This document shows, in pieces, positions 22,686 through 41,108 of a stretch of 41,213 nt of DNA. A program made the translations under genes and the position numbers. Source of the stretch: a virus. Every line of letters begins with the position of its first letter. Position 1 is the stretch's first letter. The notes under the pieces were generated by a model, which was not told the origin of the DNA, did no database searches, and saw only the letters and a program-made list of their open reading frames with translations. Location of the stretch: positions 1 through 41,213 of the IMG/VR virus record IMGVR_UViG_3300042298_000153. One strand, 5' to 3'.

Positions 22686-25600
22686 ATGAACGAACAAGCC
22701 ATTTTAGCATCTTACGATTTAGCTGTACAAAACGGGTACAAAAAATCAATTGATGAATTTAAACAACTCCTTTCATCTAATAGTGAAGCTCTTAATGTTT
22801 CCTATAATCTAGCTTTACAAAATGGATACAAGAAACCATTAGAAGATTATAAAGTCTTGATGGGTTTGAGTACAGCTCAGGAGCCTGCTGCACAGCCTGT
22901 CGAAGTAAAAAAAAAAGGCGTTACTACGGAGTTACCTTCGGAAGATGGTTCTTTGGTATCGTCAAAATCAGCTGACCCTGAAGCGTTACGCTTTGCTGAG
23001 CTAGTATCAAAGCAAGGTCAAGTTGTAGGCAAGAGAAAAGACGAGGAAGGTTATATAGACCCCCGCAAAAAGTTGGGTATGTACCCAACTCAAGAAGAGG
23101 TAAATAGAGCTATGTCTCAATCCTTTGCAGACACCATGGCTAGCAAAGGAATGGCCGCTGAAGTTGAAGAGAAAGATTTTTTTGAAGGTGGTGTCCGAGA
23201 ATCACTTCGCTTTGTTGACCAGTATGTTCCCGTATTCAATGTATTTGGCATAGGAGAATTCATTGATGATTCAGCTAGAGTTTTGGCATCGGGATACTCT
23301 CAGGGGCAATTGGCTTCAGCCGCAAACGATATAATGTTTACAGGCACGATACCAAAAGATGAAGAGATAGAGAAGTTGCTAGAGTACAACAAAATGGTAA
23401 AAGATATAGGGCCATCTGATGCTTTTATAAATTACCAAAAAAAATCTGAAGAATTAGGTGGGGGATGGTTTGGGTTTTTGCGTGGGGTCATGGACAATCC
23501 CGCTGTACTTCCCGAACTTATGGTCAATTCACTTGCAAGTATGGCGACTAATAAAGAAGCTGTTCTTGCAGGAGGTAGTGCAATATTGACAAATGCATTA
23601 GCTGCAGCTGCAGCTGCAGGTGCACCAACAGCAGGTGTAGGTGCAGCACCGGGATTTGTAGCAGGCGCAACAGCTGCAATTCCTGTAGCAATGGGATTAG
23701 CAAGTGGTATCCTAACTACAGGAGCAACCTTTGCTGAGCTACTTCAACAAGAATTAGGTACAGATGAGAACGGAAATCCTGTTGAGCCAACTACAGAAAA
23801 TATAAAAGCGGTTCTTGAAAACCCTGAGAAGTTCAATAGAATTAGAAACAAGTCTATTGCAAAGGGAGCTACAGTTGGTGCCATAGATTTTGTTACAGGT
23901 AAAACAGCATCAATTGTAGGCGCTAAAATACTGAGCAAGTCAGCTGCTAAATCAGCTACGGGAGAAGCCACTCGCGCTGCGTTCACTAAGTCCGTTGGTG
24001 CTGGTTCTGCTATTGAATCAGGTGGAGGTATGCTTGGAGAATTTGCAGGAACTGCAGCCGCAGAAGAAAAGCAGAACCTTGAGAATATATTGTTTGAAGG
24101 TATTACTGAAATGCCAATGGGGGCCTTGTCTACTGTTCAAGCAAGAATGGCTCCTTCTGTTTATAAGGTTAATAATAAAAAGGTAACTGGAGAACAGCTT
24201 GACGAGATTATTGATACGATGGAGCCTGCTGATTTAGCTAAGGCCAACATTAAAATCGAGAATGATTACGAGGGCCGTAACAAAAAAATGCAGGACAAGA
24301 TTGTTACAGGAGCCATAGCAAATGAAGTAAGAGCGGCTCAGCCTGATTTGAATGAGACGACTGTTAACGCTATTGTAGATTTACAAAAGCAATTAAACAC
24401 ATTAGAAGGGAACAAGACTCAGGTAGCTAAAGATAAAGCAGCTCAGATTAGAGGAGAGATAAAAAAACTACAGGAAAATCCTTTGCCTGAAGCTGCTGCT
24501 GTTGAACCAAAAGAAGCAGTAGTAGAATCAGGATTGACACCTGAAGAGAGGATTCAACAGATAGAAACCCTAGAGCTTGAGTTGAAGGCTGATGACAATA
24601 TTTCTAAGCAAGGAGGGAATGCATTATCATATCTTGAAAGAGTAACATTAGAAGAAGAATTACAAACCTTAAAAGCAGAACAAGATGCCTTTCAAAAGCA
24701 AACAGCAGGTCAAGTACCTGTTCAGTCAGGAGCCACAGTTAGCGAAGAAGTGGCGCAAGGAGAACCCCAAGCAGAACCTCAAGTCACTGCCGAAGCGGGT
24801 GTCCAAGAAGAAGTAGCTGGTAGTGATTCAGAAAATTTTATAAGAAAAGTTTTTGATGCTCAAAAAGAGAAAATAAATAAAGGGGAGTATAATATTTTCA
24901 ACAAATTTACAAGCAAAGATTTTTGGGAGGGAACAGAACTTGGACAATTGGCTAGTGAAAAATTTAAAGAGTTTGAAAATTCATTAGAAGAAAGATATGG
25001 GTATGATGTATTGAGTAATTTTAGTCCTTTGAATTTAGTAGAAAATAAGGATGAAAAAATAATATTTAATAACGATGGAAAGCCAATAGCTGCAGTCAAG
25101 TTAATATCAGAATCACCTAATAAATCGTCTGATACGTTTTACGATACTCCGGGATATACAAAAGAGTTAGAGCAAAGATATGGAACATCTGTTGTATTGG
25201 ATAATATTTATTCACTTGATAATGGAGGAGGTAGAGAAGCTGTAAATCAACTCAAAAAAATAGCAGACGAAAATGGAGTAAACATAGTGTTACGTGCTAG
25301 TGGTATAGAGAGTCCACTAACGGGTAAATTAATGACCTCCTCAAAAAAGCTAAAAGACATTTATACAAAGTTAGGTTTTGAAAAGGTAGATGCTATAGAC
25401 GGAAGAGATAAAGATGTATTTATTTATAAAGCTAAAAAACAGCCTGCTGTATCTCCAGCTGTAGCTCCAACAACACTAACCCAACAAGAGCAGCTTGCTC
25501 AGATGGAGCAGATGTTTGCAGAGAAAGAGACTCCTACTACTCAGCCTGTTAAATTTAAAGGAGCAAATGTACGTGACCCTATAGCGATGGACTCTCTGAG

Positions 25601-28600
25601 AAAGAGGGTAAAGGATAATACCAAGAAAGAGGTTATTGACTTTGCTCAGAAGACATTGACTACATTGAGGTCTGTACTTCCCGACTTTACAATTGTAGTT
25701 CATGATGACGAGAACAGCTACGCAAATGCACTTCCTGTTGATGGTGACACTCAGTCAGGAGGCTACTTCTCTTATGCTCAAAGACCTGATGGTACTTACG
25801 TTGGCAAGATAGATATCAACCTCAACAAAGCTAACAAGGCAACCGTTGCTCACGAAGTTGCACATGGTGTAATGCGTAAAGCATTTGGTGAGAATGTAGA
25901 ATCATTTAGAACGCTAAAGAATAGAATTGCAGCTGTATTAAATACAGAAGGCAATCAGGCATTAACCGACTTTGCAAATCAGTATAAAGAGAATGATTCA
26001 TACGAAGAGTATCTAGTTGAACTAGCTGCTCAGCTTACACAAGCGGAGAAGAACTTGTCTCCTACTCTATTGCAGAAAATTGCTTCAATAATTAATGAGG
26101 CTGTATCTAAGATTACCAACGGGGCTTTCACTCCATTCCAAAACATCAGGGATACCAAGCAGACAATTGAGTTCTTTAGAAACATATCAGAGTCTATTCG
26201 TAAAGGAGAGGCAATTAATCCTGCGGATATTACAGCAATTCAAGAGGGTCTATCGGTTCCTATTGGTAGCCCTACCACAATCAACCCTGCTCCTAAAGGA
26301 AAGGCCTCTATAAATTTCACTAAGACCCCATTACCATTATCCTTTGTTACTGAATCGGATAAGATTGACATCAATGCTTTAATAGATGACATTGTCGCCA
26401 AGAAACAAAAGATTTGGTTTTGGATGGCTGACCAACTTGGTCGTGGCAACTACTACGATGAAGTTATTGAGGGAGAGCACTACCTAGATGCAGGTCCAAG
26501 CTTTGCTTTGGACCCTGCTAACCGAAGTAAGGGCATCCTTTGGGCTAGTGGTTTACCTGAGAAGACTTTGACAAATCAAATCAATCAGGCTGATTATATA
26601 TTCTTTATCAGTGGCTCTCCTGAAAAGGCTAAGCTATTTAACAAAAGAGTGCTAGACTTATTGGCTGAGAGAATTAATAAGACTTCAAACTTTGATAAAT
26701 TCAAAGAAGCCATAAATAAATTTACTAAGGAAACTGTAGAGCTAAGGACTATCAAGGACGCATTGAATGGTGTAAATTCATTCAAAGAGTTGGCTGATAG
26801 CCCTAAGAGAAAGCCTTTCCTAATATCAATAGGTGAGATTGGAGCATTGAAGACTGCGCCTGCGGGCTCATTAAAAGAGCTACTGGGTTCATTCAATGCA
26901 TTCATTGACTACAATGATTTGAGAGATGGTTTCTACAAGGAGAATGGATTCTCTCAAAACGACATCATGCTTGTCGGCAAGCCAACTGGCGTGTCAGGCA
27001 AGGCTCCTCATTCTACTTATGAGTTTGCAATTAGCGGTGAGGTAGTTGGTGTTCCTGATAAGAAGGTCGATTCTTGGGATATCATGCCTGAGGCTATAAA
27101 AGAAAAGTACAAGGATGTAATTGGCGGTAGAGAAGAGAAGACCAAGCCGATGCAGACTAAAGTTATTGCTGCCGAGACAGGCGTTATACGAGAGCTTGAG
27201 TCTAGAGTTAAAGGCAAGGCTCAGTTGATTGGACAAAATGCAAAATTAGGAGCAGTTGTAAAATATAATTTAGGTATTGCAAAGGAATTAACAAGTGAAG
27301 GAGAAAACCCGCAAAAAATTCGAATCGAAACAGGTTGGGAACAAGGCAAGGACAAGAAATGGAGATACGAAATTCCTGATGGTAAGTTCAAAGATTTTGA
27401 TGTTGATGATTTAAGAAAAGAAATAAATGATGAAGATGAAGAAGTAAGCACAGCTATATTGGGAGATGTATTTGATTCCCCTGAATTATACGAAGCTTAT
27501 CCTGATTTAAAAGAGATTAAAGTATTATTTAAAAAATTACCTGAAAATGTAGCAGGGTCATATAATCCATATACCAATGCTATTACTGTAAGTATAGATG
27601 ACTATTTAGACCCTGCTCAAAAGGAAGAGTCTGAGCTAACGATGATTCATGAGCTTCAGCACGCAATTCAGTCTAAAGAATATTTTGAAAGGGGAGGTAC
27701 CGAAGAAATTGCTCAATCTTTCTTTGACAATTTAATAAGTAATTTAAAATATGATGTTGATAGGAAAAAAGAGATATATGAAAGAGCAAAAGCTATCTTT
27801 CCTAACGACAAAAAGAAACAGCAGGCTAGTAGAGACTTGTTTAAATATGCGCTAGAAAAGTATACCCTATTAGAGCAACTTGGTAATAGAAAAGAAACCA
27901 AGGCAAATAAAAAAATCCTAGCTGAGTGGGCTAAAATCGCTAAAGAACAAGGAATAAAGCTTCCTCCTAAAGTTAAATCTAGGCTTAGGATAACTCCTGC
28001 GGATTCTTACAATCTTTACAGAAGATTGGCAGGAGAAGTTGAAGCTAGAAATGTTGAGTTCAGAAGAAGCCTAACACCTGATGAAAGAAGAAATACATTA
28101 CTATCTGAAACAGAGGAAATAGATAGAGCAGACCAACTTATGCTAGACAATCCTGACATGATGTTCGAAGGGATTGACGAAATGAATCAGCAGTTCAAAG
28201 GGAAGGCTCAACTTGATACTGATGCTAAAGCTAAGAAGGTAGTACAGCAAGCGCGTGCTCAAGGGTTTTCTGAGGATGCAATACAACTATTCCTTGAGGG
28301 TAAGGGCCTTTCAAAACAAGCCATTGGTAAAGCCATGGCAAAAGAGACGCCTGCGGCTGGAAGAATTAAGTTGTCAGAAGAAACCATTAAGGGATATGAT
28401 TCCTTGATGAAAAGAATTGATACGCTGATTGAATCAGGAACTCCTTCCAAAGAAGTTATAAGCAAATTAAAGAACTCAAAAACATACACAGAGGCTACTG
28501 ATGTACAAAAGGAGACGCTTGTTCGTGAGACACGCAAGAAACTTGGTCTTAGACAGAAGTCTGCGCCTACTGTAAAAAGATTGTTTGGCCAGTTAAAGGA

Positions 28601-31600
28601 TATCACCAAGATAACCATGACTGAAACTGAGCTTCTTAAAAAACGAATCAGAGAAATAGGTGAAGGGGCAAAGTTAGCCAAGAAGTCTATAGCTGAAGCC
28701 AATAAGTTTTTGGCTGATGAGATTAAGGAGATGGCCAATGTAGGTAAGATTACAGACAAGCAGGCTGCCGCTATTGTTGTTAAGGTTCTAAAGATGAACC
28801 CTCTCAGCGAAGCATCTATATCTAGGTTTGTAGATTACTTGGCCAAGGTGTTCTCAAATGCTGAGTATGTTGCAAAAATGACTACTGCCTTGGGTCAAAT
28901 AAAGCAGGCTAAGAAAAACATTAGAACAAAGATTGGTGTATCTGAAGACCTATTTGAGCCATTGAATCAATTGCTATCAATCAACCCAACCCTTATCCCT
29001 TTGAATCAATTGGAGAAGTACTTGGGCATATTGGAAGACTTCGGAGCAAGAAAGACGGTCCTCAGTGTTGATGACAGAGTTAAGGTATTGAAACAAGTAA
29101 ATGAAATTCTTGACGAAATAAATAATGAGCTTTCTTTGGTAGATGTTCTTGCTGATAGATTCAATAACTACGAGGGCAAAGTATTCAGCGAAGATGGACT
29201 TAACTATGCTGCGACTATCAAGGATATGATAGACAATGGAGCCATCACTGTAGATGAATCGGAGTTGATGAAGAAGTATAAGTCTGAAATACTTCCTCAA
29301 GTAGAGCCAACTAAATTGACTGACGAAGAAATTAAAGAGCTCAAGAAGGAAGATATAGACCTATTAAAGAAGTTAAAGATTGATAACAAAGAATTCCCGC
29401 TTCCTAGCCGTGATGAAAAAGAGGATGCAATAAATCTAGCTAAGCTCATCAATGAGCTAAGCGTGGAGGACTTGATGAATCTTTCTTTGTCTGACCTTAA
29501 AAATATCATTAAGGTTATTGACAATATCAATAACGGGTATCTTCCTCACTACGCTAAGGTATCTATAGAGAAGCTCGATGCTATCAAGCAAGGTAAGGTT
29601 CTTTCAGGTGCTATAGAAAGAGCTAAGCCTTTGGCTTTCTCAAAACTTTACTCAAGGCTTAAAGATAGGTTTACTAAAAAGGGAGAAGTTGATGAATTGA
29701 TTAGAGCAAACCCTCTCTACTATATAGACAATGTTTTTGGTGACTTTAAAACAAGAGACATCTTTAACTCATTGCTTGAGAAGTCTTCTCAGGCTTTGGC
29801 TACATTTAACTCAGAGTTGAAAAGAGTAGACCAAAAGATAGAGGCAGCTCAAAACAAAGTGTTGGCATCATTCAAACAGAACTCTGAAGAATACTTGATG
29901 TCTAAGTTTAGAATGACAGCCTATATGCTTCAGCGTGAGTACGAGTCCAACATTGGTAAGAAAGGTGTTAAACCAGTGGCTGAATATCTTAAAGAAACAA
30001 TTAAGCATATCAGAAGTGGTAGGTCAATTTATAAGAAAGCTGATGCTGAGAAGCTAGAGAAAATACTCAAAGAGGTTGAAGACTACACTGTAGATGGTAA
30101 GGTAGACTTGGATAAGTTCTACAATACATTCAATAGTGCAGAGAAAAACGCTATTGAAGAGATGACTGAAATCAATAAGTCTCTAGGAGAGAAGGCTGCT
30201 TATACTGCTGCTGTAGTTCGCGGGGATAAAGTTGAGTTGATGGATAACTATGTACACCATAATGTTCTGCATGAGCAGAACCCAATGGATGCTACTGCTG
30301 CTCCTGAGTTTTCTGATAAGTATAAAAACTCAATGAAACCTTCAACAAAGGCTAAGTCATTGATTGAAAGAACAGACACTATAACTCCACTTAACTTCGA
30401 CTTGTTTACAGCTACTCACAAAGGAGCTAAGTTTGTTTTGTTGGATTACAACTTGACTTCTCCTATCCGTACTGCTAGAAGGACTTTGATTCAGGCAGAG
30501 AAAAACCTAGAGACAAAAGGCTTGATGAACGATGAAAGAGTTCAGATATTCAATGCAATCAACAACGCATACGAAGAGGCGCTTCAAAACATATTAACCA
30601 ATAACATCACTCAGGATGCTTTTGCAAATGAAGTAGTTGACTTCATTCAGAAGCAGGGATATAGAGCCGCATTGGCAGGTACCACTAGATTCCAAGCAGA
30701 ATTGGCATCAAACATTACTAACGCCTTGTTGATAAATCCTGCAGCATTTACTGAAGGGGCTAAGAACATGAAGCTTATTGCTTCTGCGAATGGGTATGAG
30801 TTCATGAAGAACGCAAAGTCAAAACAAACGTCTAGACTTTATGCTTCTGATGCTCTGTCGGGCAAGATGGTTGACCCGCAGATACTAAAGCAAACTTCAG
30901 GTATCAAGGGTAGTGTTTCTAGAGGAGCGTTGACGAATAGAACTCTTCAGATTTATAACCTTACTCTAAAGAAGTATGTTCAGAACCCAGTAGAATACAT
31001 AGCTGACACCTTACTAAGCACTCCTGATAAGATTGTTTCAATGCCGCTTTGGTTTGGTAGTTTCATGAATGAGTTCAAGAGAATAACTGGGGAAGATGTT
31101 AATCAAGACATGATGATTAACAATGACCTTGATTATATGCAGAAGTATGCGGATGCAATTCAGCAGGCCACAAGGAAGGCTGACCAAGAATCTGTATACT
31201 CAGGAGCATCTAATAACGAGTTCATGGGTATCCTTAAAGGTAAGCTAAAGCCAAATCAAGGATTAACAGCAAAGATTTGGAATAACTTTAACACTTACAT
31301 GACCAACTTCATGAACTTTGATTATGCTGCAGCAAGAAGTGCTGTGTATAACTTGTTCAATGAAGGATACATGACTAAGAAAAAGGCTGCCGCTGTGCTT
31401 GCTGGTATAACAACTAGGTCTGTAATCTATCAGGTTATGGTTGCCAACATGGGTGCAGGCATCGTTGGTGCTGCATTTGGTCTCGCATTCGATTGGGAAG
31501 ATGAGGAAGAGGTAGATGAGAAGTCATACTTACAAATGCTTGGAAGAGGATTGGCCAACGTATTAGTTGGATACACTGTCGGAAGAAACTTTGGCAACGC

Positions 31601-32399
31601 AGTAAGAGGGATGTTAAACTTTGGAGTTGAACAAATCAACGAAGAGTATCTTGACTTCCTTAGAAACGGAGAGTATGATTTCTACAAGGACAATATCGCC
31701 TACACTTATTTGAATGTTGGAGACAGGGGAGATGTAGACGTTGCAAAGATGGCGGTCAACATGGCTGGGCCTTACACTCCTGTATTGAATACAGCGGTAT
31801 TGATAGGCAAAAACTTTGGCTCAATATCAAACAGAGTTATGGGTAAAGGCCCAACTAAGAAGGAGCCTGAAGCCATAAGAAGAGAGCAGATGACTGTGGA
31901 TTATAGAATTCCTTTGGAACTTGCAGGTAACGCAGGTCTCATACCTCTTTACAAAGATGTGAAGAAGGCTGTGAATGATGAGATTTATAAGGACCTACGC
32001 AAGGCTGCCAATACTCCTGAATCATCATTACCAAGTACAGAGGATTACGAAGAGCTAAAAGATTTGAGAGAGCTTAAAAGAAGAACCTCTAACGAGGATG
32101 AGATAAAGGAGATAAATAAAAAAATAATAAAGATAGTTGGTAGCGAAGAGTCAAAAGAATCCATTGAAAAAGCAGAGGATATAAGGTCTGAGAAAAAGAA
32201 AAGGCTTCTTTATGATTCAAGCAAGGGGAAAAGATACGACAACGAAAGTGATATGAAGCGAATAAATCCTGCTCTTTGGAGAAGAAGATTCGGACCGAAT
32301 TCAGATTGGGCTAAGAGTAATAAGGCAAAGAACGCTGTCGATAATAAGTTAGAGAAGGTGGCCAACAAGAGAGAAGATAAAGAGTTCAATAAAAGGTAA
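22686..32399 (+). CDS. Giant polyvalent ejection protein, two metallopeptidase motifs
   Basis: This 3237-residue protein is a quarter of the window. It begins with two tandem repeats (SYDLAVQNGYKKSIDEFKQL and SYNLALQNGYKKPLEDYKVL), then Ala/Gly-rich membrane-like segments (about residues 293-358) and coiled coil. A GNAT-like domain follows (about 716-919, ending KLKDIYTKLGFEKVDAIDG), then a first HExxH motif (HEVAH, 1056-1060). Next is an LPD23-like segment (ENPQKIRIETGWEQGKDKKW) leading to a second HExxH (HELQH, 1655-1659) with the typical GSYNPYTNAITV strand before it. The hexamer-like KGKA recurs at 1204, 1509 and 1838. The C-terminal third is helical with hydrophobic stretches near 2902-2937. 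Polyvalent proteins of this class are injected with phage DNA and act on host defences or the envelope; the substrates here are unknown. No DxDxD of a virion RNA polymerase was seen. Confidence 0.8.
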   Translation: MNEQAILASYDLAVQNGYKKSIDEFKQLLSSNSEALNVSYNLALQNGYKKPLEDYKVLMGLSTAQEPAAQPVEVKKKGVTTELPSEDGSLVSSKSADPEALRFAELVSKQGQVVGKRKDEEGYIDPRKKLGMYPTQEEVNRAMSQSFADTMASKGMAAEVEEKDFFEGGVRESLRFVDQYVPVFNVFGIGEFIDDSARVLASGYSQGQLASAANDIMFTGTIPKDEEIEKLLEYNKMVKDIGPSDAFINYQKKSEELGGGWFGFLRGVMDNPAVLPELMVNSLASMATNKEAVLAGGSAILTNALAAAAAAGAPTAGVGAAPGFVAGATAAIPVAMGLASGILTTGATFAELLQQELGTDENGNPVEPTTENIKAVLENPEKFNRIRNKSIAKGATVGAIDFVTGKTASIVGAKILSKSAAKSATGEATRAAFTKSVGAGSAIESGGGMLGEFAGTAAAEEKQNLENILFEGITEMPMGALSTVQARMAPSVYKVNNKKVTGEQLDEIIDTMEPADLAKANIKIENDYEGRNKKMQDKIVTGAIANEVRAAQPDLNETTVNAIVDLQKQLNTLEGNKTQVAKDKAAQIRGEIKKLQENPLPEAAAVEPKEAVVESGLTPEERIQQIETLELELKADDNISKQGGNALSYLERVTLEEELQTLKAEQDAFQKQTAGQVPVQSGATVSEEVAQGEPQAEPQVTAEAGVQEEVAGSDSENFIRKVFDAQKEKINKGEYNIFNKFTSKDFWEGTELGQLASEKFKEFENSLEERYGYDVLSNFSPLNLVENKDEKIIFNNDGKPIAAVKLISESPNKSSDTFYDTPGYTKELEQRYGTSVVLDNIYSLDNGGGREAVNQLKKIADENGVNIVLRASGIESPLTGKLMTSSKKLKDIYTKLGFEKVDAIDGRDKDVFIYKAKKQPAVSPAVAPTTLTQQEQLAQMEQMFAEKETPTTQPVKFKGANVRDPIAMDSLRKRVKDNTKKEVIDFAQKTLTTLRSVLPDFTIVVHDDENSYANALPVDGDTQSGGYFSYAQRPDGTYVGKIDINLNKANKATVAHEVAHGVMRKAFGENVESFRTLKNRIAAVLNTEGNQALTDFANQYKENDSYEEYLVELAAQLTQAEKNLSPTLLQKIASIINEAVSKITNGAFTPFQNIRDTKQTIEFFRNISESIRKGEAINPADITAIQEGLSVPIGSPTTINPAPKGKASINFTKTPLPLSFVTESDKIDINALIDDIVAKKQKIWFWMADQLGRGNYYDEVIEGEHYLDAGPSFALDPANRSKGILWASGLPEKTLTNQINQADYIFFISGSPEKAKLFNKRVLDLLAERINKTSNFDKFKEAINKFTKETVELRTIKDALNGVNSFKELADSPKRKPFLISIGEIGALKTAPAGSLKELLGSFNAFIDYNDLRDGFYKENGFSQNDIMLVGKPTGVSGKAPHSTYEFAISGEVVGVPDKKVDSWDIMPEAIKEKYKDVIGGREEKTKPMQTKVIAAETGVIRELESRVKGKAQLIGQNAKLGAVVKYNLGIAKELTSEGENPQKIRIETGWEQGKDKKWRYEIPDGKFKDFDVDDLRKEINDEDEEVSTAILGDVFDSPELYEAYPDLKEIKVLFKKLPENVAGSYNPYTNAITVSIDDYLDPAQKEESELTMIHELQHAIQSKEYFERGGTEEIAQSFFDNLISNLKYDVDRKKEIYERAKAIFPNDKKKQQASRDLFKYALEKYTLLEQLGNRKETKANKKILAEWAKIAKEQGIKLPPKVKSRLRITPADSYNLYRRLAGEVEARNVEFRRSLTPDERRNTLLSETEEIDRADQLMLDNPDMMFEGIDEMNQQFKGKAQLDTDAKAKKVVQQARAQGFSEDAIQLFLEGKGLSKQAIGKAMAKETPAAGRIKLSEETIKGYDSLMKRIDTLIESGTPSKEVISKLKNSKTYTEATDVQKETLVRETRKKLGLRQKSAPTVKRLFGQLKDITKITMTETELLKKRIREIGEGAKLAKKSIAEANKFLADEIKEMANVGKITDKQAAAIVVKVLKMNPLSEASISRFVDYLAKVFSNAEYVAKMTTALGQIKQAKKNIRTKIGVSEDLFEPLNQLLSINPTLIPLNQLEKYLGILEDFGARKTVLSVDDRVKVLKQVNEILDEINNELSLVDVLADRFNNYEGKVFSEDGLNYAATIKDMIDNGAITVDESELMKKYKSEILPQVEPTKLTDEEIKELKKEDIDLLKKLKIDNKEFPLPSRDEKEDAINLAKLINELSVEDLMNLSLSDLKNIIKVIDNINNGYLPHYAKVSIEKLDAIKQGKVLSGAIERAKPLAFSKLYSRLKDRFTKKGEVDELIRANPLYYIDNVFGDFKTRDIFNSLLEKSSQALATFNSELKRVDQKIEAAQNKVLASFKQNSEEYLMSKFRMTAYMLQREYESNIGKKGVKPVAEYLKETIKHIRSGRSIYKKADAEKLEKILKEVEDYTVDGKVDLDKFYNTFNSAEKNAIEEMTEINKSLGEKAAYTAAVVRGDKVELMDNYVHHNVLHEQNPMDATAAPEFSDKYKNSMKPSTKAKSLIERTDTITPLNFDLFTATHKGAKFVLLDYNLTSPIRTARRTLIQAEKNLETKGLMNDERVQIFNAINNAYEEALQNILTNNITQDAFANEVVDFIQKQGYRAALAGTTRFQAELASNITNALLINPAAFTEGAKNMKLIASANGYEFMKNAKSKQTSRLYASDALSGKMVDPQILKQTSGIKGSVSRGALTNRTLQIYNLTLKKYVQNPVEYIADTLLSTPDKIVSMPLWFGSFMNEFKRITGEDVNQDMMINNDLDYMQKYADAIQQATRKADQESVYSGASNNEFMGILKGKLKPNQGLTAKIWNNFNTYMTNFMNFDYAAARSAVYNLFNEGYMTKKKAAAVLAGITTRSVIYQVMVANMGAGIVGAAFGLAFDWEDEEEVDEKSYLQMLGRGLANVLVGYTVGRNFGNAVRGMLNFGVEQINEEYLDFLRNGEYDFYKDNIAYTYLNVGDRGDVDVAKMAVNMAGPYTPVLNTAVLIGKNFGSISNRVMGKGPTKKEPEAIRREQMTVDYRIPLELAGNAGLIPLYKDVKKAVNDEIYKDLRKAANTPESSLPSTEDYEELKDLRELKRRTSNEDEIKEINKKIIKIVGSEESKESIEKAEDIRSEKKKRLLYDSSKGKRYDNESDMKRINPALWRRRFGPNSDWAKSNKAKNAVDNKLEKVANKREDKEFNKR

Positions 32400-32801: not shown

Positions 32802-32985
32802 CTTCCTCTATTGATTTCAACATTAGTCTTAAATCGTAGATGAGTTCCTTCAGCTCTACCTCAGCCTTCTTGAAGTCTCTGTCTACTACATTCTCATAAA
32901 TACTTGCTAGTAGCGCGTGGTTTAGTCCTGTCCTTGCGGCAATTCTATTTGCTCTAGCGTTCTCTCGGTCTCTTTTCCTTTCCAT
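32791..32985 (-). CDS. Small basic hypothetical protein
   Basis: This 64-residue protein has a very basic N-terminus (MERKRDRENARANRIAARTG) and an acidic helical C-terminus (KKAEVELKELIYDLRLMLKS; EEDDF). Its start lies 64 bases inside the 3' end of the upstream gene and its stop overlaps the downstream start by 11 bases. The unusually long overlap makes the start uncertain, but no other ATG upstream of residue 55 exists. Function is unknown. Confidence 0.5.
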   Translation of the reverse strand: MERKRDRENARANRIAARTGLNHALLASIYENVVDRDFKKAEVELKELIYDLRLMLKSIEEDDF

Positions 32986-33482
32986 GGTCTGACGGTGGTT
33001 TCAAACACTTGGATTAGTTTCTCGAATACTAAGTCTTCTTTTCCCAATGGAGTATTGATGTCAACAAGTTCGATAATCTTTCTTATCCTGTCGTACTTGT
33101 CTTCAACTTTCTCTAACCCACTTCTGTCCCAAACAGAGTAGCCCATCTTTGTGCTTCTACTGGATACATACTCATGTTGTTCCTGTACAACTCCCTTAAT
33201 TGTCACGAAGAATAAATCTTTACACTCTAAGTATTTCTCCTTCACTTCAGGGTTGTATTTCAAAAGATTTTCCACGTCTCCCATGTAGTACATATAAACT
33301 CCGTAGCTTTTTTTCATGAAGCCACAGATGTCCTCACTTGAGAATCCGATGTCACTTAGTATTTTACAAAACACTTTCCTCGCGCTTACGTTGTTTTGTT
33401 TTTTTGAATGGTTAAATATGTTAGCGTTAAATTCTCTGTTCACTATCTGAGACAGGGCTTCCATCTTGGTGTACTTATGCAT
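32922..33482 (-). CDS. DnaA domain IV-like DNA-binding protein (putative)
   Basis: I place the start at ATG 33482 (186 residues), which overlaps the upstream nuclease gene by 8 bases; ATGs at 33488 and 33515 are alternatives. Residues about 34-75 (SARKVFCKILSDIGFSSEDI, then CGFMKKSYGVYMYYM) resemble the C-terminal DnaA domain: a helix, a turn with 'xSxxxIxxxx', and a recognition helix in the place of the DHTTV signature. The signature itself is replaced by KSYGVYMYY. The rest (KLIQVFETTVRPWKGKE) is charged. Proteins with a lone domain of this kind can bind origin-type repeats. The match is suggestive only. Confidence 0.5.
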   Translation of the reverse strand: MHKYTKMEALSQIVNREFNANIFNHSKKQNNVSARKVFCKILSDIGFSSEDICGFMKKSYGVYMYYMGDVENLLKYNPEVKEKYLECKDLFFVTIKGVVQEQHEYVSSRSTKMGYSVWDRSGLEKVEDKYDRIRKIIELVDINTPLGKEDLVFEKLIQVFETTVRPWKGKETERTLEQIELPQGQD

Positions 33483-37604: not shown

Positions 37605-37765
37605 TTCCTTATCTTCTTAATCAGTTCCTCTAGGCTCTCGTCACTAAGGAAGCTGTCCTTCTCAGCGCTCCAATAGTCTAGGTACTTGTCTCTGTGTATC
37701 GCATACCATCTGTTGGTATACTCGCTGAAGTGGAACACGTAGTTCCAAATGATTACATTACTCAT
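37601..37765 (-). CDS. Small hypothetical protein, 54 residues
   Basis: I choose ATG 37765 (MSNVIIWNYVFHFSEYTNRW), 54 residues, overlapping the primase gene by 8 bases; the in-frame ATG further upstream lies inside the primase gene. It ends ELIKKIRK and shares its ATGA with the helicase start. It is aromatic-rich, with a short alpha-beta fold likely. No function is known. Confidence 0.6.
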   Translation of the reverse strand: MSNVIIWNYVFHFSEYTNRWYAIHRDKYLDYWSAEKDSFLSDESLEELIKKIRK

Positions 37766-40166
37766 CGTTTTCTTTTTTGCTTTTGATAATAATCCATCTG
37801 CCCTGCTGGTCTCTGTCCTCCTCAGGCATGGTGCCCTCCTTGTACATCGCATAGGACACCAGCCATCTGTAGAATTTAGTTCGGCTGATGCTCATGCGTC
37901 CACGTGGCCCATAGTCAGGGTACTCGTCCACGAAGTTGCTGTATAGCTCGTTCTTGTAGAGCCTCACATCCGTCTGTAGCATCACGTTACGCTCTGTGCT
38001 GTCAACCAAGCCACACCACTCGATAAACTCGTGGCAAGTCTCTGCCGATAGCTGTCGTATCTTTAGGTTCACAAACTTACTCTTGACTAGTCCTGTCCGC
38101 AGGTAGTTAGTCAGACATCCAATCATGTAGTTGTCGAACTCACACCAGTCGTCATCGTTCCAATCCCCGAACATCAACTTACCAAACTCATCCAATGGAG
38201 TGTACTCCTTGGTGTAGTACTGATGTAACTCCAGCTCCCACTTACGTCTAGCAAATGAGTTGCCTGCTCCCTTGATTGCGTAGTTGGTTGTCAATGCAAT
38301 CTTTGGAGACTTGGCAAAAGGAATCTTGATAGCGTCCTTGTTCTTCTTCTCTAGTGTCAACCCTTCTGTAATCACACTGAACAAACGCTCAAAGTCGAAG
38401 TGCTTTCTCACGTCATCGAAGCAAAGTATCTGCGTGTCTGCTGACACCAATTGGTAGGCGAAGCTACGCTCAAAGGCAAATGACTTGCCGTCAATCACCA
38501 CTAGCTTTTTCATCTTGCTCAGGGCATTCATCAGAAGCCCCTTGCCTGTGCCACCCTCAGGGTTGTCGCTGATGACCTCATCGTTCAGGATGACCGCAGG
38601 ACAGAAGCTAAGGTTCTTGTATCCGTGTAGCAGGAATCCTAGCGTGCTCTCCATGGACTTGATGCGTCCCTCGTCACCACCATTGATGTTGCTGACAAAC
38701 TTCTTGAAGTCAAAGTCATTTGACACCCCGCACATCACGAAGTTCCTGTCAATCACATGGTCGTTCCACACGTATCCACCAAGGTCTAGGTAGTCCAAGG
38801 TAGACACGCCATCCTTTGTAATCTTCACCGCGCAGTTCTTGTAGTACAGGTACGCTGCGTTCTTGGTGTCTGCAATAAAGTAAATGTCAATCGTAGACAG
38901 CATGGACAAGAACTCCTCCCTGAAGAACCTAGTTTGGTCAGCGAAGTAGTTGTACACCGCAATGTCGTCCAGCTCCAGCAGATGGTTCAGCACGAAGTCC
39001 TTAATCTCCTTCTCTGAGGTGTGGTCAATCAAGTTGTTGGTGACCTTCACGAACACGTAGTTCTTGCCCCCCTCAGGGCAGTACTTGTAGAAGCCGTTGT
39101 CCTCCAAGAACTGCTTGAACTGAATGTGAATTATTCGGATGACCCCCTTGTCGTTCCTGTCCCAAAAGGTTTGCTTGGCATTCTCCTCCTCAACCTTATT
39201 GAGCACAGATTCGATTGTATCGCTGTCCAAGTGGGAGTCCTGCAGTTGGATGCGAATCTCTTTTTTTGATACACCACGTCTGAGTTTGGCTCTGATGTTA
39301 TTGATGCGCTCCTCGTCCTCGTAGTACTTGGTTCCAAAGTTGGCCGTGTGCTTGTAGGCCGAGTCAATAGTTTGAGCAATCTCTCGAGTCGTGAAGTCCT
39401 CTGAGGCGTACTGGTTCAATACATAGGATGCCAATCCCTTGTTGATTCCAAAGTCATTGAAGGCCATGGCCAGCACGTAGCAGTTCTGATTGCGCTGTCC
39501 CTCGCTCATTGGGTACTTCTTTGTCCACCACTTGACAAGTATGTCCACAATCTTATTCTCATCCGTGATTGGAATGGTAGGCTGGTCTCTTGTCTTGATG
39601 ACCTCGTTGTACTCGGGCTCCTCGATTAAGTCCCACACACTGCTGTTCTCGTTGATGTGTAGCAACGGGTCGTAAGACTCGTAGCACACGCGAGACACGT
39701 TCTTGCTGGTCTTGTCGAAGTATGGGCTGTTGAAGTACTTCTCTAGGCTGTTGAAGTAGTTGGTGTGATTCTCAGGGTCTGCAGGAATCTTTACCAATAC
39801 CTTGAGGCCATTGCCTGACGGGCTAATGAATACAGAGAACACGTACTTGTTCTTGGTCAGGTTCTCCTTGTCCTGCAGGAGCTCCTTATTTTTGGTGTAG
39901 CCATCGAAGTCAAGGCATATCAACCCTGAGTGCTGTATCAGGGACGCGTCTGTCCTCTTGTTGAATGTACCGCTGAAGCAAATTGCAGGCAGTAGCTTCT
40001 TGAGTTCTTGTCTCTCAGGCTTGTTTTTCTCTGAGCGAATTCGCTTGACCAAGTCCTTGGTTGTCTCAGAACCTTCCCTGATTCTGTTAAGAATTACTCT
40101 CACATCCCTATGGAACGGAGTGTCCGTGTCCCTGATGCTTTTAAATATGGTTATGTCTTGTGTCAT
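37758..40166 (-). CDS. Primase-helicase, BT4734/VirE-N type
   Basis: This 802-residue replication enzyme has an N-terminal primase-like domain of the BT4734-like/VirE-N group: SLIQHSGLICLDFDGY (metal-binding Asp86, Asp88) and FISPSGNGLKVLVKI (115-126). A PriCT-like linker follows (about 200-280, CYVLAMAFNDFGINKGLASY). The C-terminal half is an SF3/D5-type helicase: Walker A PEGGTGKG (536-543), Walker B ILCFDDV (580-586), sensor IALTTNYAI (623-631) and an Arg pair at 640-641. It would prime and unwind phage DNA, and the adjacent A+T-rich region is a natural start site. The gene is first behind the putative origin. Confidence 0.85.
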   Translation of the reverse strand: MTQDITIFKSIRDTDTPFHRDVRVILNRIREGSETTKDLVKRIRSEKNKPERQELKKLLPAICFSGTFNKRTDASLIQHSGLICLDFDGYTKNKELLQDKENLTKNKYVFSVFISPSGNGLKVLVKIPADPENHTNYFNSLEKYFNSPYFDKTSKNVSRVCYESYDPLLHINENSSVWDLIEEPEYNEVIKTRDQPTIPITDENKIVDILVKWWTKKYPMSEGQRNQNCYVLAMAFNDFGINKGLASYVLNQYASEDFTTREIAQTIDSAYKHTANFGTKYYEDEERINNIRAKLRRGVSKKEIRIQLQDSHLDSDTIESVLNKVEEENAKQTFWDRNDKGVIRIIHIQFKQFLEDNGFYKYCPEGGKNYVFVKVTNNLIDHTSEKEIKDFVLNHLLELDDIAVYNYFADQTRFFREEFLSMLSTIDIYFIADTKNAAYLYYKNCAVKITKDGVSTLDYLDLGGYVWNDHVIDRNFVMCGVSNDFDFKKFVSNINGGDEGRIKSMESTLGFLLHGYKNLSFCPAVILNDEVISDNPEGGTGKGLLMNALSKMKKLVVIDGKSFAFERSFAYQLVSADTQILCFDDVRKHFDFERLFSVITEGLTLEKKNKDAIKIPFAKSPKIALTTNYAIKGAGNSFARRKWELELHQYYTKEYTPLDEFGKLMFGDWNDDDWCEFDNYMIGCLTNYLRTGLVKSKFVNLKIRQLSAETCHEFIEWCGLVDSTERNVMLQTDVRLYKNELYSNFVDEYPDYGPRGRMSISRTKFYRWLVSYAMYKEGTMPEEDRDQQGRWIIIKSKKENDE

Positions 40167-40180
40167 AAATGTTGAATGGG

Positions 40181-40325
40181 TGTCGATTTTATGTAGTGTA
40201 AGTTACTGACTTTCAATTTACTGTCAATTATGTCGATTTTTAATTCAAATTTTAAATAAAAAAAAATAAAAAGAATAGAAATTATATATAGAGATAGTAG
40301 GGAAAATTAATTGACATTTTTGACA
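40181..40325 (-). other. Putative replication origin: inverted paired 9-mers around an A+T tract
   Basis: The gap 40167-40378 contains, on the + strand, TGTCGATTTT at 40181-40190, TGTCAATTA at 40222-40230 and TGTCGATTT at 40231-40239. On the - strand it has TGTCAAAAA (40325 to 40317) and TGTCAATTA (40316 to 40308). The last two pairs are head-to-tail 9-mers in opposite orientations, flanking about 67 bases (40241-40307) with only 9 G/C. Read in the other direction the 9-mers have the form WWWTNGACA, close to the DnaA box TTWTNCACA. Position between the primase-helicase and SSB genes supports an origin. Alternatively the repeats are operators for leftward early transcription. Confidence 0.5.
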
Positions 40326-40337
40326 GGCAGAAAGGCC

Positions 40338-40362
40338 AAAAAAAAGGGAGAGATTGTCTCCC
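40338..40362 (-). terminator. Intrinsic terminator of the SSB-like gene (leftward)
   Basis: On the - strand GGGAGA (40362 to 40357) pairs with TCTCCC (40351 to 40346) around a 5-base loop and is followed by eight T (complement of 40338-40345). It lies 16 bases beyond the stop of the SSB-like gene and separates that unit from the origin and primase. Confidence 0.85.
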
Positions 40363-40378
40363 CCTTATTTTACCTCCA

Positions 40379-40678
40379 TTAGAATGGTAAGTCACCATCA
40401 TCCTCGGGCTCAGGCAACACTACCTTTGGCTGTGGCTTTGCCTTCACTTCTGTTGGCTTAGCTCCTGTCGGTGCCTCGTAGGTGTCTAACTCAACGTAGT
40501 GGTTCCCGCTTCGCGCGGTCTTCACATTGAGGTTGACCCAGCCATTACGCTGGTGCTCCTTGATGAATGCTACTGCTTCGTCAACTTTTAAAGATAGTCT
40601 GCCGACTACAAAGTCGGGAGCCTTTTCGTTTCTCTTGAAAGAGAATCCGTCTGCAAAGATTTTTTCGTCTTGTGCCAT
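40379..40678 (-). CDS. Single-stranded DNA-binding protein-like
   Basis: This 99-residue protein ends in an acidic tip, PEDDGDLPF, equivalent to the DDDIPF tail by which SSBs recruit replication and repair enzymes. Before it there is a Pro/Lys linker (GAKPTEVKAKPQPKVVLPEP) and an N-terminal beta-rich domain of about 70 residues (VVGRLSLKVDEAVAFIKEHQ; WVNLNVKTARSGNHYVELDT) compatible with a compact OB fold. It is shorter than bacterial SSB, as phage versions often are. It is followed by its own terminator, and lies next to the origin and primase. Confidence 0.7.
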   Translation of the reverse strand: MAQDEKIFADGFSFKRNEKAPDFVVGRLSLKVDEAVAFIKEHQRNGWVNLNVKTARSGNHYVELDTYEAPTGAKPTEVKAKPQPKVVLPEPEDDGDLPF

Positions 40679-40735: not shown

Positions 40736-40754
40736 TAAGCAGGATGTTAGTTGT

Positions 40755-40911
40755 AGTCAGGACAGGATTCGAACCTGTATTTCACGTCTGAATTACTATG
40801 TATTACTTCTTGAGTTCCACTCTCTGTATTGCTTTTGGGAGCTACCCACGCCTTATACACACATTTATTTTCCATAACGCATAGCATCGTCTACCATTCC
40901 GCCACCTGACT
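40755..40911 (-). tRNA. tRNA-like gene 1, class II shape, enlarged anticodon loop
   Basis: On the - strand the acceptor halves AGTCAGG (40911 to 40905) and CCTGACT (40761 to 40755) pair over 7 bases, and the T arm ACAGG-TTCGAAT-CCTGT is perfect. The 5' part TGGCGGAATGGTAGAC is a Leu-type D arm. A hairpin TTCA-GACG-TGAA sits where a class II variable arm would be. CTATG (40884 to 40880) pairs with CATAG (40800 to 40796) as an anticodon stem, but encloses 79 bases instead of 7, so no anticodon can be read. The loop contains further small hairpins. CCA is not encoded (ACA). It could be an interrupted tRNA, a degenerate copy or a tRNA-shaped RNA with another role. Confidence 0.6.
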
Positions 40912-40917
40912 ATTTAA

Positions 40918-41019: not shown

Positions 41020-41039
41020 AATTATTTATTTTAATGTGT

Positions 41040-41108
41040 AGTCAGGACAGGATTCGAACCTGTAACAGACCCATTGGCCCGCGTCTTCCTCTATTCCGCC
41101 ACCTGACT
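41040..41108 (-). tRNA. tRNA-like gene 2, shortened anticodon region
   Basis: The 69-base element shares its acceptor stem (AGTCAGG/CCTGACT), T arm (ACAGG-TTCGAAT-CCTGT), the D-arm start TGGCGGAAT and the 3' ACA with tRNA-like gene 1, so they arose by duplication. D stem GCG/CGC is possible. Only 17 bases remain between D and T arms instead of the usual 23; they can form GGCC-AATG-GGTC, a 4-bp stem with a 4-base loop, which leaves no normal 7-base anticodon loop with U33. No amino-acid identity is assigned. Confidence 0.6.

Follow-up and report, generated by a model that had tools for sequence, protein, structure and literature searches.

From its sequence, we interpret the gap at 40167-40378 of this 41,213-nucleotide stretch of viral DNA (hereafter, the window) as an iteron-type replication origin, one of a pair of copies carried by a group of phages with genomes of roughly 60-65 kb, a reading to which we assign a probability of about 0.72. 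What is observed is a series of WWWTYGACA boxes that flank the least stable DNA at fixed spacing, an arrangement that is conserved among relatives, duplicated in direct orientation and strictly associated with a primase of the archaeo-eukaryotic (AEP) type fused to an SF3-type helicase. The preliminary description of this DNA had also proposed an origin, possibly bound by the 186-residue protein encoded at 32922-33482; with the boxes conserved and clustered an origin is still the best explanation, but the proposed binder is probably wrong. The features in and around the gap are as follows.

32922..33482, minus strand: P0003, a 186-aa DnaA domain-IV-like protein of the L family, its recognition motif lost in the window's clade
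37758..40166, minus strand: P0001, an 802-aa primase-helicase with a BT4734-like (AEP) N-terminus, a PriCT_1-like segment and DUF5906
40181..40190, minus strand: third box set, adjoining the primase start (AAAATCGACA)
40181-40190: further 9-mer site as first quoted, TGTCGATTTT
40198..40221, minus strand: conserved block downstream of the right pair, from the alignment of copies 1 and 2 (AGTCAGTAACTTAC in the window)
40222..40239, minus strand: right box pair, AAATCGACA-TAATTGACA, head to tail with a 9-bp period
40222-40230, plus strand: 9-mer as first quoted, TGTCAATTA
40231-40239, plus strand: 9-mer as first quoted, TGTCGATTT
40240..40307: AT-rich tract, candidate DNA unwinding element, 9 G/C in 68 bp
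40308..40326, minus strand: left box pair, TGTCAAAAA-TGTCAATTA (TGACGAAAATGTCR in most close relatives)
40316-40308, minus strand: 9-mer as first quoted, TGTCAATTA
40325-40317, minus strand: 9-mer as first quoted, TGTCAAAAA
40344..40366, minus strand: intrinsic terminator at the end of the SSB-like gene, upstream of the element; 10-bp stem, then a T run
40379..40678, minus strand: SSB-like 99-aa protein ending DDGDLPF, assigned from this tail and its position only

All of the 9-mers quoted in the preliminary description are present where it placed them, and its count of nine G/C between the pairs is correct for 40240-40307. Five TGTCRAWWW 9-mers are packed into 145 bp that span the window's least stable 100 bp (40211-40310), and the 70-bp GC minimum of the whole window is at 40226. 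The window holds 15 such sites against 8.4 expected, five of them inside these 145 bp, and a Poisson estimate puts the chance of a five-box cluster anywhere in the window at ~1e-7. The left and right pairs form an 18-bp imperfect inverted repeat, so the symmetry that was first remarked on exists in the window; it is not conserved in most close relatives, however, and is particular to the left arm of the window's clade. Most close relatives have TGACGAAAATGTCR as the left arm and, on the right side, a second box set about 40-50 bp further on. The array also extends beyond the two pairs first described, to the third set next to the primase start, which in relatives consists of two or three boxes at 11-bp spacing. 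No known RNA was found inside the element, a tRNA being the only one nearby.

Comparison of eighty related primase loci revealed a common layout upstream of the primase, with the terminator at the same place. Read on the primase strand, the relatives have the terminator, a left pair (TGACGAAAATGTCR or similar), CCCTA with the AT-rich tract, AAATYGACATWATYGACA, a ATCAATAAGTTA-like block and, just before the start codon, a YGACA box set. We define the element as the terminator, the left box pair, the AT-rich tract, a WWWTYGACA pair 9 bp apart, a ATCARTNAGTTA-like block and a second set 11 bp apart. The block downstream of the right pair reads ATCAATAAGTTA or ATCAGTAACTTA in relatives versus AGTCAGTAACTTAC in the window. 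The consensus of 521 boxes is WWWTYGACAT, although the pattern used to collect them itself demanded YGACA; spacings of 9 and 11 bp predominate and are present in nearly all elements. Lack of conservation of the 9-mers in relatives had been named beforehand as grounds for abandoning an origin; they are conserved at the primase/SSB gap. Of 159 related loci that encode an AEP primase/SF3-type helicase, 150 carry the element between this gene and the SSB-like gene; it is absent from all 80 loci whose primase is of the DnaG/DnaB type. The nine exceptions are mostly short loci or clades with drifted boxes. Such boxes occur in the outlying clades of L302 (12381-12494) and L298 (7112-7224), where they are AGCATAAA-like, and upstream of the primase in L440 and L456, where they resemble TAACA/TCATCA; these clades should be useful for testing co-variation with the candidate binding protein S (below) and the primase.

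A second copy of the element strengthens the origin interpretation. An HMM built from the primase-side copies only (copy 1) and run on nine near-complete relatives found exactly two copies in each, in the same orientation and 8.7-12.3 kb apart, with copy 2 matched at E 2e-26 to 4e-10; the best match in a reversed-sequence control had an E of 1.7. In two of the nine genomes a weaker reverse-strand match overlaps copy 2 and arises from extra inverted boxes there. The two copies are separated by 8.05-12.3 kb in the 39 S-bearing loci where both are present, and the closest relative of the window (L230, primase 93% identical) carries both, 9.1 kb apart. That only copy 1 appears in the window is explained by its being a linear 41-kb piece of a genome that in relatives measures roughly 60-65 kb. 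In complete relatives the 9-mers are clustered at the two sites, which answers the earlier concern that they might be scattered at random through the genome. Copy 1 ranks first or second in instability in eight of the nine near-complete genomes, and copy 2 ranks within the first six, again in eight of nine. Two relatives (L282 and L289) have a tRNA-like sequence directly after copy 2, and their copy 2 contains (AGT)n repeats in the AT-rich tract that resemble DnaA-trio triplets. Trio repeats (TAG/TAA triplets after boxes) occur in some relatives; we set them aside, as so loose a motif means little in AT-rich DNA.

Copy 2 has the start of a phage groEL gene on one side and, on the other, the 3' end of a conserved gene encoding about 80 aa; GroEL (532-573 aa) is encoded directly beside copy 2 in all nine complete genomes (G004, G006, G008 and others). 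This location bears on an alternative in which the element is a duplicated early promoter/operator whose boxes serve as operators through which a phage regulator, perhaps S, a small HTH protein, controls primase and groEL. Copy 1 is directly upstream of the primase, copy 2 is directly upstream of groEL, and boxes near start codons suit operators. The main argument against this is orientation: groEL and the conserved gene that flank copy 2 are both transcribed against the orientation of the element, so that copy 2 points the opposite way to its two neighbours, whereas copy 1 runs along its gene. Moreover, the alignment of element copies showed no recognisable conserved promoter hexamers, a promoter scan of the element region was near background, both copies fall among the least stable parts of the genome, and the boxes are concentrated at two sites and not at other gene starts. 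We consider a promoter/operator unlikely, although some of the boxes in copy 1 could be regulatory, since the primase promoter must lie in copy 1 too. Two direct-oriented iteron arrays at fixed places would equally suit a centromere or a recognition site, and hence a plasmid-like partition site or a packaging site instead of a replication start; that the element adjoins the SSB and primase genes and goes with the primase class, with the terminase genes far away in the late arm, makes this very improbable.

GC skew, which had been suggested as a check, is less informative. In all nine genomes there is a negative-to-positive flip about 1 kb from copy 2, as might be expected of an origin, but it does not lie at copy 1, and it coincides with a switch in the direction of transcription. 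Because of this divergent transcription the flip is not independent evidence, and we do not use it as proof of an origin.

The iteron-type origin that we favour has the usual parts of a theta origin, namely several short direct repeats at regular spacing (9 and 11 bp), adjacent AT-rich DNA that is easily melted and, in the related loci, a likely cognate replication gene immediately downstream of copy 1. The product of that gene in the window, P0001, matches BT4734-like_N at 9e-19, and BT4734-like proteins belong to the AEP family (PMC5862659); its DUF5906 and PriCT_1 matches are below cut-off. The C-terminal half contains the motifs GGTGKG, ILCFDD and IALTTN, which we infer to be of the SF3 helicase type, and the Walker A/B and TTN motifs are invariant in the primase-helicase. 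A sequence search of P0001 against solved structures returned no meaningful relative, and the SSB-like neighbour gave no Pfam or PHROG match.

The resemblance of the 9-mers to DnaA boxes, on which the preliminary description had drawn, is real in that TTATCGACA is like TTATCCACA, but it is only suggestive. The DnaA box consensus is TTWTNCACA (PMC7561715), and the phage 9-mers are close to it and stand beside an AT-rich tract; they differ from it in having G instead of C at position 6 of WWWTYGACA, and in their very short, regular spacing. The phage group does encode two families of DnaA domain-IV-like proteins, which we call S and L. In all nine complete genomes S has a length of 100 aa, and its gene lies some 2-3 kb upstream of copy 1, which in relatives corresponds to a position just beyond the end of the window. 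A profile search links S to DnaA structures (E 7e-8), and its model (pLDDT 91) has a TM of ~0.8 to 3pvp and 1j1v, structures of DnaA domain IV bound to DNA. L is 164-194 aa long, is found in eight of the nine complete genomes and includes P0003 of the window. Members of both families score above the curated cut-off of 31.5 bits for Bac_DnaA_C (PF08299; 34.1 bits for the S-type P0006 and 34.5 bits for the L-type P0005), so that profile and fold together place both families with DnaA domain IV. The DnaA_C proteins of these phages are orphan domain-IV-like proteins only, of about 100 and 160-195 aa; no full-length DnaA with an AAA+ domain, the domain that opens DNA in DnaA, is encoded by the phages. 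With G at position 6 of the box and no AAA+ domain, the element does not qualify as a DnaA-type oriC. Direct binding by host DnaA is likewise very improbable: TTATCGACA differs from the DnaA box TTATCCACA at a single base, yet position 6 of the box consensus is G, not C (with the reservation that the collecting pattern demanded YGACA), and the phages encode DnaA_C proteins of their own. A search of host and prophage sequences found no relatives of S in bacterial genomes. In the literature searched, of which our coverage was incomplete, no account came to light of phages that encode orphan DnaA domain-IV proteins with boxes of their own.

Which protein reads the boxes is a separate question. 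P0003 is indeed a homologue of DnaA domain IV, as had been suggested: its own sequence has no Pfam match, but it is tied to the domain through orthologues (3.4e-10 to a protein of MW202828) and by its fold (TMt 0.82 to 3pvp). In most L proteins the KDHTT motif of DnaA is intact; base-reading positions of E. coli DnaA (D433, H434 and T435; PMC7561715) fall within it. P0003 is nevertheless an unlikely reader, because in the window's clade the motif is replaced (KSYGVYMYY versus KDHTTIIHY) while the boxes stay the same as in relatives with an intact KDHTT-type motif. Better candidates are S and the primase-helicase. S, which keeps the histidine of the recognition motif in most phages, may well be the binder, at a little under even odds, and 78 of 80 loci with S also have the element. 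It is also possible, if somewhat less probable, that P0001 itself binds the boxes, by analogy with the P4 alpha protein. A single genome favours the primase-helicase as the reader: in G025 (L303) a DnaG/DnaB-type primase has been swapped in for the AEP/SF3 primase, directly after the SSB-like gene, and the element was not found in its 54.5-kb record, although S and a second DnaA_C protein are kept. Statistics that ignore ancestry show a weak association between changes in the S helix and loss of boxes (rho 0.32), a weak fall in box number with S divergence (partial r 0.21, p 0.07) and, once S is accounted for, no such fall with primase divergence (0.03), which speaks for S. Some phages with altered S helices retain boxes (L427). 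We do not take this co-variation as proof of binding by S, as it is weak and takes no account of ancestry.

For the origin itself, we propose that a phage protein would bind the boxes, that the AT-rich tract would then melt, and that the SF3-type primase-helicase would load at the element and prime theta replication. A more tentative proposal combines the two candidate readers in a split initiator, in which S, its specificity shifted from TTATCCACA to TTATCGACA, would mark the two origins for the AEP primase/SF3-type helicase, and the helicase would take over the melting job of the AAA+ domain of DnaA, much as papillomavirus E2 recruits E1. If correct, this would provide two mapped origins and likely replication proteins for a large, uncharacterised group of environmental phages, together with a DnaA box-reading domain that works on its own with an unrelated helicase, and the separation of origin recognition from origin melting would become testable with small proteins.

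By enzyme type, the closest known system is that of satellite phage P4, whose alpha protein is a primase fused to an SF3 helicase and whose replication needs two iteron sites, ori1 and crr. Two iteron sites and a primase-SF3 helicase fusion, the latter seen in P0001, are common to both systems; P4 differs in its iterons and in the primase domain of alpha, and the phages described here almost always have a separate DnaA_C protein as well. The closest known architecture, compared by arrangement alone, is that of the Bacillus phage SPP1, in which oriL and oriR are 12 kb apart, near replication genes, and are both bound by G38P, with one origin used early and the other implicated in the switch to concatemer synthesis (PMC3485210). 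All nine near-complete relatives likewise have two copies of the sequence far apart in one genome, at 8-12 kb, but SPP1 uses G38P, a helicase loader and its own replicative helicase in place of an AEP primase/SF3-type helicase and DnaA domain-IV-like proteins. The second copy may be a second origin or, as has been suggested for SPP1 oriR, a bound block that assists the change to concatemer synthesis. The primase of phage NrS-1, an AEP enzyme with a helicase domain at its C-terminus, initiates at a specific sequence that is present twice in the genome (PMC7102993, PMC8718748), much as is proposed here; that sequence is a single 8-mer on a single-stranded template, in contrast to the double-stranded iteron array described above.

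Other features of the window are recorded here as observations in their own right. The late protein of 3237 aa encoded at 22686-32399 (plus strand) has as its sole match a PHROG of unknown function. A tRNA gene at 41039-41108 (minus strand) scores 37.5 bits with Rfam and is not reported by ARAGORN. A longer tRNA-like sequence at 40742-40915 (minus strand) has 5' and 3' ends nearly those of this tRNA and a much longer middle, and is possibly an intron-bearing or decayed tRNA.
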